Below the pieces are notes generated by a model. It ran no database searches and was not told the DNA's origin. It was given only the letters and a program-made list of their open reading frames with translations. The position numbers and the translations under genes are program-made. DNA of 41,638 nucleotides from Gemmatimonadota bacterium (GTDB lineage: Bacteria; Gemmatimonadota; Gemmatimonadetes; Gemmatimonadales; GWC2-71-9). Positions 31,574 through 35,293 of this stretch are shown here, piece after piece. Location: the NCBI GenBank assembly GCA_029862925.1, contig JAOTWJ010000012.1, forward strand, positions 1-41,638, written 5' to 3'. Position 1 is the stretch's first letter. Every line of letters begins with the position of its first letter.

Positions 31574-31819
31574 TCATCTCCCGGGGGGCTTCTGGTTCCA
31601 GGGCGCGTTGGGGTCCGCCGACTGCCGCCGCTGCTGCTGCTGGGAGGCCCCGGCGGCCTCGGTCGTGTCGCAATGCGGGTTCTGCGGGCATTTCTTGCTG
31701 GCGCTCTCCCCCTGACCCAGGAGGTGCCGCGGCGCGGCGAGGGAGGCCACGACGGGCGCCGTGTACACGAGGCCGGCGGCCAGCGTCTTCAAGAAGCTGC
31801 GGCGATCGTCCCTCGTCAT
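31574..31819 (-). CDS. 81-residue twin-arginine signal peptide, possible modified-peptide precursor
   Basis: A small protein opening with a Tat signal: RRSFLK at residues 6-11, hydrophobic core TLAAGLVYTAPVVASLAAP, then a hydrophilic remainder. The mature part is only about 45 residues, with two cysteines (KKCPQNPHC), a QQQQRR run and a Pro/Asn-rich end (DPNAPWNQKPPGR). Such a short mature region is unlikely to be an enzyme. Its ATG overlaps the methyltransferase stop (ATGA), making it the last gene of the HPrK-like/NTPase/PqqD/methyltransferase operon. It could be the operon's substrate; this is inference. Confidence 0.72.
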   Translation of the reverse strand: MTRDDRRSFLKTLAAGLVYTAPVVASLAAPRHLLGQGESASKKCPQNPHCDTTEAAGASQQQQRRQSADPNAPWNQKPPGR

Positions 31820-32970
31820 GGACCGTCCTCCCGGCGTGCCGGCGTGGCGGTGCGGTTCCGGAGCGTCTCGCCCACGAGACGGAGCGCCTCGTCGGGGGTC
31901 AACTCAGGATAGGACGCGCGGAGCCCTGCTGCAATACTGGCAACCGTGCGCCGGCCATCCGTGAGGTGGAGCACGACGGCCTCGATCTGCGTGCGCCGCG
32001 ACAAGTGCGGGGTCCCCTCCGGGGAAACGGCCGCCAGGTCCGCTAGGGCCGCGGGCACCGAGGCAAACTCGTGTCCGCGCCGCTCGGCCGTGCCCGCCGT
32101 GACGGTCCAGCCGAGCCACCCCGGCGCTCCGCCCGCCAACACGTCCGGCCCCACGTCGGCGATCAGCCGCGCCCCCGCGGCCACCGGGAGGGGCGGATCA
32201 CAGGGAAGGAAGAGGTGCCCCCACGATCCGGGGTCCGCGCCCGGGCCGTTGGACAGCGTGATGCCCTCCGCCAGCTCGAGATCGAACCAGTACGCGAGCC
32301 CGTGCACCGCCGTGTCCCGTTCCAGGGTCCACACCGCCCGCCCCCGCAGCGCAGCCACGTTCGTCGGCGTGGCAAACTGCAGCTCCGCAAGCGGCGCCGG
32401 TAGCGCCGCCAGGGCGTCGGGCGGGATCGCCACCTGGAGCGGCGCGTTGACGACGTACTCGCGCACGCAGTCCCAGCGAATGCCGTACGCCTGCTCCGAC
32501 GGTCCGAACGGGGCGATCTCCGTGTGGAGGCTCTCGGACGATACGGGCGCCACCCAGAACCTTGCCGCCGCGGGGACGAAGCGGCATGCGGGCGCGGCGT
32601 AACGGGCGTGCAGGTGAGCCAGCAGATGAAACACGCGCGTGTCCAGCAGGCGCGACGGGAAGTCCTCGAACACGACCACGTCGGCCGGCTCGGGCAGCTG
32701 CACGTCGGGCAGCCAGCCGCGGATCCACTCGATCCGGTCCGCATAGTCGTTGCGGCGGGCCACGCTCTTGGCGACGTGCACGATCGGGTCGCCGTCCACG
32801 GCCCAGACGCGGCTCGCGCCCGCGTCGGCGGCGAAGAACGCGAACGTCCCGACCCCCGTGCCGATTTCCAGCACCCGGTCGCCGGGACGGACCACGCGGC
32901 GCAGCGCGGCGCGAAACGCCTCGATGCGGGTCTGCTGGGTGAGGAGGTTCCGGTAGTATTTCGCGCTCAC
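31816..32970 (-). CDS. PRMT-like class I methyltransferase fused to a C-terminal PqqD-like domain
   Basis: A 384-residue protein. The N-terminal half is a SAM-dependent methyltransferase with motif I VLEIGTGVGTFAF (about 33-45), a following acidic AVDGDP, and DVVVFEDFPSRLLD, which resembles the catalytic Glu loop region of protein arginine methyltransferases. A beta-rich middle follows. The last about 70 residues (HLSRRTQIEAVVLHL, DGRRTVASIAAGLRA, TPDEALRLVGETLRN) look like the PqqD-type winged helix that binds peptide leaders. The GTG at 32970 overlaps the separate pqqD-like stop (GTGA). It likely modifies a small peptide or protein. Confidence 0.83.
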   Translation of the reverse strand: MSAKYYRNLLTQQTRIEAFRAALRRVVRPGDRVLEIGTGVGTFAFFAADAGASRVWAVDGDPIVHVAKSVARRNDYADRIEWIRGWLPDVQLPEPADVVVFEDFPSRLLDTRVFHLLAHLHARYAAPACRFVPAAARFWVAPVSSESLHTEIAPFGPSEQAYGIRWDCVREYVVNAPLQVAIPPDALAALPAPLAELQFATPTNVAALRGRAVWTLERDTAVHGLAYWFDLELAEGITLSNGPGADPGSWGHLFLPCDPPLPVAAGARLIADVGPDVLAGGAPGWLGWTVTAGTAERRGHEFASVPAALADLAAVSPEGTPHLSRRTQIEAVVLHLTDGRRTVASIAAGLRASYPELTPDEALRLVGETLRNRTATPARREDGP

Positions 32971-33239
32971 TCGAGCAGCCCTTCCGTCCGGAATCGCTCG
33001 ACCATCTCCGCCACATCGCGTTCTACGGCGGAGAGATCGCCACCGTCGGCGAACGTCGCATGCACGGCGCGGGCGATGTCCTGGAGCGTGAGCTCGCCGG
33101 TGCAGTGCTCCCACACCAAGGCCGCGGTCAGGTTCATGGCGTGCAGCCGCTGCGCCACGGGATCGAACGCCACCCATTCCTCGTCGAGTTGGCGGAAGAC
33201 GACGTCGCTGCGGACGCGCGGCTTCACGGGTGTGGCCAT
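32967..33239 (-). CDS. PqqD-family peptide chaperone-like protein
   Basis: A 90-residue winged-helix protein. The strand/turn FRQLDEEWVAFDPVAQRLHAMNLTAALVWEHC, the TLQDIARAVHATF helix and the acidic C-terminal helix ending in EGLLE match the PqqD/HPr-rel-A PqqD family. Family members bind leader peptides and present them to modifying enzymes. The stop overlaps the methyltransferase start by four bases, and the nucleotidyltransferase gene lies 42 bases upstream. Together with the PqqD-like tail of the methyltransferase this gives two leader-binding modules in one operon. Confidence 0.88.
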   Translation of the reverse strand: MATPVKPRVRSDVVFRQLDEEWVAFDPVAQRLHAMNLTAALVWEHCTGELTLQDIARAVHATFADGGDLSAVERDVAEMVERFRTEGLLE

Positions 33240-33281
33240 GAGAGCAAGATCATGTGGCCCCCGGCGCGCGGCAAGCCGGAC

Positions 33282-34376
33282 TCAACGCGCCACCTTGCGC
33301 CCCACACTCCCCCAGTGGCGCGCCAGGGCGCCGAGCCGCGTCCGGGCCTCGGGCCAGCGCCACCGCAAGTGGGCCTGCGGCGGCCAGAGGGCGTCCCACA
33401 CGACTCCCGCCCCGTTCCACACGTGCTCGACCGCCAGCAGCCGGCGGCCGACCCGTCCTGGCGTGATCGCGGCGCGCGTGGACGGACCGGCGGCGGCCGC
33501 CCACGCGAGCCAGCGGTCGAGCCGCAGCGAGGCCGCGAGCCGGCGCGCGCGCCAGTCGGAGGGGGCGGCCTCCAGGCGTGGCGGTCGGGCCAACCCGAGA
33601 TCGCGCGCGAGCACGTCGGCGACGATCCGGGCGACTCGCCCCGCCCGGAGCGCGCGCGCGGTGGCAGCAAACGTCGTCCCCTCGTCGGCGAGCACCTGCG
33701 GCCACAGCACCGCGAGGTCCACCAGGCTCACCACGTGCAGGAAGTCGTGGTGCACGAGGTGGTGCACCAGCAGGGCGGCGTGGTCACCGGGGCACGGGGC
33801 GGGCAGCCGGCCCTGCCTCGCGCGGTCCCACACCCCGCGAGGGAGGGGCGTGCGATCACGCGGCAGCAGCGACGTGAGGGGCTCCACGCCCCAGTGGAGA
33901 TCCACGACGGCGGACTCGACGTCCGAGGTCGCCGCGCGCACGAGCGTCAGCCCGGGCCGGAGTGGGGACGGGCCGCGGTCCGGATCGTCGGCTTCGACGC
34001 GGAACCCCAGGGACTCGAGCGTCGCCCGCGCCGCCGGCGCGGCGTCGCGCGCGACGTACACGTCGATGTCGGCCAGTTCGCGGGCGCCCGGCGGGTAGAG
34101 ATCGTCGACGAAGACGATGCCCTTCACGAACACATGGGGGAGGCCGGCCGCGCTGAACGCGGCCGAGATCGTCGTCGCCGTCTCACGCAGGAGTTGGCCG
34201 TGCAGGGCGCCGAGCAGACGCGGGACGTCTCGCGCGGGGGCCGCCGCCGGGGTCACGATGCCGGCAACGCCGAGCCGCTCCGCCACGCGCCGTGCGCCCT
34301 CGGGCGCAGTGTCCCCGAGCGTCTGTGCCGCGCGCGCGCAGGCGTCCCGGAGCCGCGCGACGGTGTCGGGGTTCAC
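33282..34376 (-). CDS. nucleotidyltransferase family protein (NTP_transf_5-like)
   Basis: A 364-residue protein. Residues about 80-125 contain the nucleotidyltransferase core: GLPHVFVKGIVFVDDLYPPGARELADIDVYV, with the catalytic DID. Downstream are VVDLHWGVEP and HHLVHHDFLHVVSLVDLAVL, characteristic of this family found in lasso-peptide and HPr-rel-A clusters. The C-terminal half is helical and Arg/Trp-rich. The GTG at 34376 overlaps the kinase stop (GTGA); the longer upstream frame is shadow of the kinase gene. It probably transfers a nucleotide or acts on a phosphorylated peptide; the substrate is unknown. Confidence 0.86.
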   Translation of the reverse strand: MNPDTVARLRDACARAAQTLGDTAPEGARRVAERLGVAGIVTPAAAPARDVPRLLGALHGQLLRETATTISAAFSAAGLPHVFVKGIVFVDDLYPPGARELADIDVYVARDAAPAARATLESLGFRVEADDPDRGPSPLRPGLTLVRAATSDVESAVVDLHWGVEPLTSLLPRDRTPLPRGVWDRARQGRLPAPCPGDHAALLVHHLVHHDFLHVVSLVDLAVLWPQVLADEGTTFAATARALRAGRVARIVADVLARDLGLARPPRLEAAPSDWRARRLAASLRLDRWLAWAAAAGPSTRAAITPGRVGRRLLAVEHVWNGAGVVWDALWPPQAHLRWRWPEARTRLGALARHWGSVGRKVAR

Positions 34377-35293
34377 GCGAGGAGGTCCTCGAGCGCGCGC
34401 ACCGCGTCGGCGGCCGCGCCGAAGGTGAGCGCCACGGTCTCGGCCGAGCGCGCGATCTCGAAGAGCCGATCGAACGCCTCGGCCGGTGAGCGACCGCTGC
34501 GCAGCACGCTCGTCAGGAGCGCGTTCAGTCCCTCGCGGCGGGATCGGGGCCGGACGTGCACCTCCGCGTCGCGCGCGAACGTCGGGAGCACGAGCAATCC
34601 CACCGGCGTCGGGTCCGCCCAGGCGGCTGCTCCTTCCGGTTCGTACCACGCCTCGGCGCTCCCCGGGGCCCAGAAGGGTGTGTCCTCGGGTGCCACGCCC
34701 GCCGCCGCGAGTGCGCGTGGGTCCAGCTTGAGGAAGCGGCGCACGGCGCCCGCCCGTCCCGACGCATCGAGCACCACCACGTCGTCACCGAGCACCGGGT
34801 GCCCGCGCCGCGACCACGCGAACGCGAGGCTCGACTTGCCCGTGCCCGCCTCCCCCGGAATCAGCGCGGCGCGGTCGTGCCGCACGAGTCCGGCGGCGTG
34901 GACGTGGACGTGGTGCGCGAGCGCCGCGAGCAGGAGCGTCGTCAGCACCCACTCGCACCCCTCGATGGCCTCGAGCCGCGTGCGGCACACGACGGGCGCG
35001 CCCGCTGGACCCTCGATCACGTACCCGCCCCCCTGCGTTCGCACGTCCACGCGGCGTGCGTCCGGGGCGCGGGGTGCCGCGGGGTGCACCGCGTACGACC
35101 GGAACAGGCGGCCGACGTCGGCGAGCAACGCCGGATCCCGCACGGCGACGGTGACGCGGCTCCCCGCGAGGTCGTACTCCAGCGGCGGTGTCTCGATCGC
35201 TATCCTCCGATTCGGTCGCCCCTCGACAACACGGAGTCCCGATGAGCAATCTACGTTGGTCTTCGACCTCACACCCGCGACGGGCGCCACCAT
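34373..35293 (-). CDS. HPr kinase-like protein (HprK-related kinase A type)
   Basis: A 306-residue P-loop protein related to HPr kinase/phosphorylase. The P-loop PGEAGTGKSSLAF is at about 146-158 and the following LGDDVVVLD at about 168-176. The N-terminal third (RVTVAVRDPALLADVGRLFRSYAVH) fits HprK-related kinases of peptide clusters rather than true HPr kinase, and no HPr gene is near. The ATG at 35293 is the furthest start; GTG 35272 is possible. Typical domain sequence starts near residue 35, so the start is uncertain. First gene of the peptide-modification-like operon; divergent from a small membrane protein gene. Confidence 0.84.
   Translation of the reverse strand: MVAPVAGVRSKTNVDCSSGLRVVEGRPNRRIAIETPPLEYDLAGSRVTVAVRDPALLADVGRLFRSYAVHPAAPRAPDARRVDVRTQGGGYVIEGPAGAPVVCRTRLEAIEGCEWVLTTLLLAALAHHVHVHAAGLVRHDRAALIPGEAGTGKSSLAFAWSRRGHPVLGDDVVVLDASGRAGAVRRFLKLDPRALAAAGVAPEDTPFWAPGSAEAWYEPEGAAAWADPTPVGLLVLPTFARDAEVHVRPRSRREGLNALLTSVLRSGRSPAEAFDRLFEIARSAETVALTFGAAADAVRALEDLLA

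Follow-up and report, generated by a model that had tools for sequence, protein, structure and literature searches.

A recurrent kinase, PqqD and methyltransferase cassette from Gemmatimonadota that may produce a linear, Tat-exported modified peptide

Linear polyphosphorylated peptides (LPPs) were described from Bacillota, where their clusters encode a peptidase and an exporter of their own (Popov et al. 2026, PMC13381572). The kinase LppK polyphosphorylates Ser3 of the LPP core, and the recognition element of this class of ribosomally synthesized and post-translationally modified peptides (RiPPs), the RiPP recognition element (RRE), binds a YxxP motif (PMC13381572). Lasso peptide precursors are likewise modified, by PadeK, PsmK and PsmN (PMC9266682). 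Here we analyzed a five-gene cassette on the minus strand of contig JAOTWJ010000012.1 (assembly GCA_029862925.1) from a Gemmatimonadota bacterium; the window is the whole 41,638-nucleotide stretch, and the cassette occupies positions 31574-35293. We consider it fairly probable that this operon makes an LPP-like linear RiPP exported by the twin-arginine translocation (Tat) pathway, in which the Tat signal is the RRE-bound leader and a methyltransferase (MT) of the protein arginine methyltransferase (PRMT) fold has been added. The LPPs, rather than the lasso peptides, were the closest known system.

The first-pass annotation had described five tightly packed genes, and the sequence confirmed this arrangement, with 4-nt overlaps at three of the four junctions:

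34373..35293, minus strand: HprK-like kinase gene, start uncertain
34373-34376: GTGA overlap, kinase/nucleotidyltransferase junction
33282..34376, minus strand: nucleotidyltransferase (NTase) gene of the NTP_transf_5 family (PF14907, E=3.9e-21)
42-nt gap: NTase/PqqD junction
32967..33239, minus strand: free PqqD-family RRE gene (PF05402, E=5e-11)
32967-32970: GTGA overlap, PqqD/MT junction
31816..32970, minus strand: PRMT-fold MT gene with a C-terminal helical extension (profile and fold match to PRMT6)
31816-31819: ATGA overlap, MT/Tat peptide junction
31574..31819, minus strand: gene for an 81-aa Tat-signal peptide, the proposed precursor or substrate (kept in 8/8 family cassettes)

Domain searches back all five predicted assignments, weakly for the kinase and the Tat peptide, whose matches lie under curated cut-offs. 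Like the LPP clusters, the cassette combines a discrete RRE, an HprK-like kinase and an NTP transferase with a YxxPxV leader motif, a variable linear core and no macrolactam cyclase. The differences are also clear. The LPP precursor motif YxxPxVLxHQxIxFETxxS is represented in the window only by YxxPxV, inside the Tat signal, with no HQxIxFETxxS part, and LPP clusters contain the SpI-type peptidase LppS and an MsbA-like exporter, whereas no exporter or peptidase gene was found among the genes neighbouring the window cassette. In addition, the window differs in using a Tat signal as leader, in the added PRMT-fold MT and in lying outside Bacillota, and phosphorylation, shown for LPPs, is a prediction for the window cassette. 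The cassette would work in an LPP-like manner, but lacks the LPP peptidase, the exporter and the full leader motif and was therefore not classed as a member of that family.

Beyond the window, MT and Tat peptide genes were paired at 20 loci, most of them with PqqD and the kinase as well, in Gemmatimonadota, Planctomycetota, Poribacteria, KSB1 and Myxococcota. In 201 genomes searched across the order, seven others of the window's family had a close MT homolog (41-58% identity), and a second family had remote homologs (~30-36%). The Tat peptide gene lay directly 3' of the MT in 8/8 cassettes of the window's family, and at locus L034, where the MT gene is disrupted, it followed the detached 3' portion of that gene; a simple gene caller missed most of these genes because they are short. 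The cassette was also found in KSB1 (L065), Poribacteria (L067), Planctomycetota (L068) and other Gemmatimonadota (L062-L064, L066, L069), and phylum-wide searches, which for KSB1 covered one genome, contributed L147-L149 and L160 from Planctomycetota and L162 from Myxococcota. The distribution was patchy, with a Tat match in 13/394 genomes of the class. A plasmid search with the MT gave no match; one with an MT-less kinase gave three short matches, and the one region inspected carried no annotation. The gene order was kinase-NTase-PqqD-MT-Tat in the window's family, PqqD-MT-Tat-kinase in family f10, where the Tat peptide lies between MT and kinase, and PqqD-kinase-MT-Tat-NTase in Planctomycetota. 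The first-pass annotation had named separation of these genes in relatives as a refutation; the Tat gene and the MT do stay together there, while the order varies across families. The packing and the presence of homologous Tat peptides beside the MT in other genomes and phyla indicate that the cassette is not a chance grouping. In the literature searched, we found no relevant paper joining RRE-dependent peptides with Tat export, or PRMTs with lasso peptides, and the recurrent Tat-peptide cassette seems not to have been described before.

The 81-aa peptide contains a twin arginine followed by a hydrophobic stretch, and the genome encodes TatC (E=1.1e-62); its match to TAT_signal was weak (E=0.024), as were those to the NCBIfam signal models. 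The following features were located in its gene:

31799..31804, minus strand: twin arginine Arg6-Arg7 (peptide alignment)
31748..31765, minus strand: Tyr19-Thr-Ala-Pro-Val-Val24, RRE-recognition motif [Y/F/W]xxPx[V/I/L] within the Tat hydrophobic region (24/25 versus 0/24, see below)
31697..31705, minus strand: Ser39 and Ser41, candidate sites of phosphorylation that closely follow the expected signal cleavage region
31580..31588, minus strand: Pro-Pro-Gly close to the C-terminus, a conserved tail in peptides of the window's family (alignment)

The Tat peptides share RRxFLKK followed by an aromatic-x-x-Pro-x-aliphatic motif. We found [YF]xxPx[VILM] in 24/25 Tat peptides and in 0/24 ordinary Tat signals from relatives (Fisher p = 4e-13, a value overstated because the peptides are related), and in 21/25 the aromatic residue (Tyr/Phe) stood at exactly +13 relative to the first Arg. 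The controls were 24 clear Tat signals drawn from relatives via TIGR01409, since the initial controls, Tat-like proteins from the loci, were too poor. Lasso and LPP RREs bind [Y/W]xxPx[L/V/I/A/F/Y] (PMC13381572), and the window peptide matches the lasso-type form [Y/W]xxPx[L/V/I/A/F/Y] at the sequence level; the Tat hydrophobic region therefore likely carries an RRE ligand. MT-less kinase/PqqD sets of Gemmatimonadaceae (L239-L241) also encode Tat peptides, of 54-59 aa, with WxxPxV. By a loose pattern, a Ser stands shortly past an AQ/GQ-type junction in 27/32 peptides. A basic residue soon after this Ser was apparently commoner in MT-bearing loci, which is a lead only, given the regular expression used and the relatedness of the peptides. 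In Myxococcota, the Tat peptide at L162:4795-5160 has a K/R/A/T repeat (TRKRATRKRA...) as its tail and lies upstream of PqqD-kinase-MT-NTase.

Next to an HprK-like kinase gene, six loci (L245, L246, L247, L249, L250, L252) encoded a fusion of PqqD with an internal Tat segment and a short tail that is often rich in Cys. In these fusions, Arg-Arg, Pro and one Ser after an AxA-like site were invariant and the aromatic residue was lost, as if tethering had made it unnecessary. The model of one fusion had a mean predicted local distance difference test (pLDDT) value of 67, and its best PDB matches, with weak E-values of 0.04-0.3, were to TbiB1, a lasso RRE, with the leader bound; we regard this likeness as a hint only. 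Together, the leader motif and the fusions support the earlier proposal of a peptide whose leader would be read by PqqD. A further locus, L244:3285-3804, contains three short tandem genes with repeated YE(A/P)P...REVHYAG adjoining PqqD, a kinase and a radical-SAM-like protein; it resembles a further array of RiPP precursors.

Phosphorylated lasso peptides (paeninodin, pseudomycoidin) share with the window a kinase, an NTase, a PqqD-type B1 protein and a YxxPx[L/V] leader, and we found related MTs in lasso loci of Gemmatimonadaceae, Planctomycetota and Myxococcota. In particular, the remote MT homologs from the second family lie in lasso clusters with an Asn_synthase cyclase, a Transglut_core3 B2 peptidase, PqqD, kinase, NTase and YxxPxLxxxG...T precursors, and several Planctomycetota and Myxococcota MT loci are likewise of the lasso type. 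The presence of the same kinase, NTase, PqqD and related MT in Gemmatimonadaceae lasso clusters might suggest that the window cassette is a degenerate lasso cluster that has lost its cyclase and B2 peptidase. In contrast to lasso loci, the window has no cyclase, no B2 peptidase and no lasso precursor, and its MT belongs to another clade. Across 61 tabulated MT genes, no cyclase or B2 gene was found within 6 kb in the window or in any Tat-type locus, which bears out the earlier reading that lasso cyclase and protease are missing here, and no Tat peptide was found within the same distance in any lasso-type locus. In a quick MT tree with several weak branches, 20 Tat-type MTs and two MTs without an identified precursor formed one group (SH-like approximate likelihood ratio test 99), all 21 lasso MTs fell outside it, and L160 (Tat) was placed among MTs without such neighbours. 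As the loci and the MT tree split in the same way, the Tat-type locus is, on these comparisons, a stable association and not a product of lasso-cluster decay. The Tat-type MTs of several phyla group in a clade of their own, the operons are intact and conserved, with overlapping genes and a distinct type of precursor, and the Gly/Thr pattern of lasso leaders is absent from the peptide; we disfavour the degenerate-cluster explanation as very improbable.

Lasso clusters of Gemmatimonadaceae, Planctomycetota and Myxococcota commonly carry PRMT-like MTs as tailoring genes (L039-L054, L150, L151, L155, L156, L168, L177), and many Gemmatimonadaceae lasso cores end in or near [RK][TS]. Stand-alone PRMT-like MTs with no kinase, RRE or precursor nearby were also observed in Planctomycetota and Myxococcota (L153, L154, L157-L159, L161, L163-L167, L169, L171, L172, L174-L176).

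The window kinase matched Hpr_kinase_C under the Pfam cut-off (E=2.5e-5), and its homologs start ~35 residues later than the annotated protein; the true start is probably ~35 codons downstream of the annotated one. Residues E114, H132, GxxGxGK153, D170 and R186 were invariant across 16 aligned kinase homologs, and in the NTase R99, D103 and D105 were invariant. The catalytic stretch of the kinase is as follows:

34781..34900, minus strand: His132, P-loop GEAGTGKS with Lys153, and Asp170-Asp171 (homolog alignment)

The same His-Lys-Asp-Asp set is essential in lasso kinases (PMC9266682). The first-pass annotation had placed these genes in the HPr-rel-A set (TIGR04352 kinase, TIGR04353 PqqD_rel_X), which contains the same kinds of gene. 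HprK_rel_A was indeed the best NCBIfam match of the kinase (E=2.8e-17), but with 62.7 bits against a cut-off of 200, and PqqD_rel_X scored 18.1 against 35; the relatives L241, L246, L147 and L096 were likewise under the cut-offs. By these scores the window genes are related to the HPr-rel-A set and not members of it, and this assignment did not hold.

The remote HprK similarity of the kinase, together with an HPr encoded in the genome, would fit a regulatory kinase for conventional HPr with the other genes as chance neighbours. This HPr shares its operon with EI and with a canonical HprK of 322 aa and therefore does not require the window kinase, which aligns with that HprK over only 72 residues. 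With the packing and co-occurrence of the cassette also speaking against chance, conventional HPr, which would have counted against the first-pass annotation, was rejected as the substrate, and we consider this explanation scarcely credible. The same genome has another HprK-like kinase at locus L258 (G000:C52), where a B2-like transglutaminase and an NTase-like gene accompany it.

PRMT6 was the top PDB match of the MT by profile (E=8.9e-52) and fold (E=1.8e-26), the MT matched PRMT_C (E=1.4e-7), and its structure model (pLDDT 89) revealed the PRMT Rossmann and beta-barrel fold. The eukaryotic-type enzymes PRMT6, PRMT3 and PRMT1 share this fold and the first Glu of the double-E loop with the MT at 19-25% identity over ~310-320 columns. 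In contrast to these enzymes, the MT has GSW in place of the THW loop, a second Glu that is not conserved, and extra C-terminal helices. The two active-site positions are:

32662..32670, minus strand: FED motif, equivalent to the first Glu in the double-E loop of PRMTs, invariant in the MT family (alignment)
32221..32229, minus strand: GSW at the PRMT THW-loop position, with Thr and His not kept (alignment)

The MT is thus best described, from these alignments and searches, as a PRMT-fold enzyme whose arginine methyltransferase activity is doubtful. The first-pass annotation had also assigned it a PqqD-like C-terminal leader-binding domain. A 43-column helical stretch does match PqqD, weakly (hhalign 77%); this is at best half the domain, the modeled extension consists of helices without the RRE beta-sheet, and it is absent from L062, L067 and L070, which leaves a leader-binding domain of its own unproven. 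The sole PADLOC match in a screen for anti-phage defence was that of the MT to mad2 (E=1.1e-12, 136 residues), which we read as a shared methyltransferase domain, and a defence role was rejected.

In the proposed mechanism, the 81-aa peptide would be the precursor, with residues ~1-36 as Tat signal and leader and the remainder as a variable core. The free PqqD would bind Tyr19-x-x-Pro22-x-Val24, as lasso and LPP RREs bind [Y/W]xxPx[L/V/I], and would present the core to the HprK-like kinase for phosphorylation, perhaps polyphosphorylation, of a Ser near the signal cleavage site (Ser39/Ser41). The NTP_transf_5 enzyme may then place a nucleotidyl or sugar group on the Ser phosphate; its relative PsmN has been associated with the transfer of a hexose to the phospho-Ser in pseudomycoidin (PMC9266682), and the NTase would accordingly act after the kinase. 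The PRMT-fold enzyme would methylate the core. These modifications would take place in the cytoplasm before Tat export, with PqqD as the adaptor, and because the signal would be covered by the RRE, export would be held back until the modifications are complete. In place of the dedicated exporter and peptidase of lasso and LPP clusters, the cell would then use the Tat translocon and its housekeeping signal peptidase. Overall, the interpretation given by the first-pass annotation was partly supported.

Several observations weigh against this mechanism. L070 and L170 lie within the MT Tat clade yet show no Tat peptide, L036 is PqqD-MT-Tat without an adjoining kinase or NTase, L034 has no kinase, and L093, one of the 25 peptides, has the motif yet no cassette nearby. 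The L162 peptide and the PqqD-Tat fusions have no aromatic residue, the Ser is not universal (the L065 peptide has none at that position), and many members of the family have no clear A-x-A cleavage site. The ligand of an RRE has to adopt a strand, but the Tat hydrophobic region is usually helical. The incomplete PRMT active site makes methylation of Arg doubtful, and the sequences are related, so the counts overstate the independent evidence.

The window cassette is flanked on one side by an opposite-strand 92-aa open reading frame of unknown function and on the other by several small unknowns and SLT/LysM lytic transglycosylases; a GNAT is also among the neighbours, and the downstream neighbours recur at the cassettes of L032, L033, L035 and L036. 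LPP and paeninodin clusters are often in capsule loci (PMC13381572), and the Tat peptide might instead be a secreted or membrane-anchored partner, with the enzymes decorating a surface glycan, lipid or the like and PqqD acting as a Tat-signal chaperone similar to the redox enzyme maturation proteins. A PqqD over the Tat signal would indeed resemble a proofreading chaperone, and the tails of the Tat peptides are low-complexity and poorly conserved. Nevertheless, no glycan genes were found among the genes neighbouring the window cassette, LppK and PadeK/PsmK act on the peptide bound by their RRE (PMC13381572, PMC9266682), and a conserved leader with a variable tail has the appearance of a RiPP precursor. 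We therefore consider the partner explanation unlikely.

Beyond the window, we lean slightly toward a widespread RiPP class outside Bacillota, PqqD-Tat fusions included, in which the Tat signal doubles as the RRE-bound leader, phosphorylation, NTase transfer and, in a subset, methylation precede export, and Tat with the general signal peptidase replaces a dedicated exporter and protease. If the LPP-like, Tat-exported peptide is real, the orphan HprK-like/PqqD/NTP_transf_5 sets of Gram-negative bacteria would gain a concrete substrate, the LPP family described in 2026 would reach beyond Bacillota, and RiPP maturation would be coupled to the Tat pathway. PRMT-fold enzymes would also be placed in RiPP tailoring, in lasso and Tat-type clusters alike.

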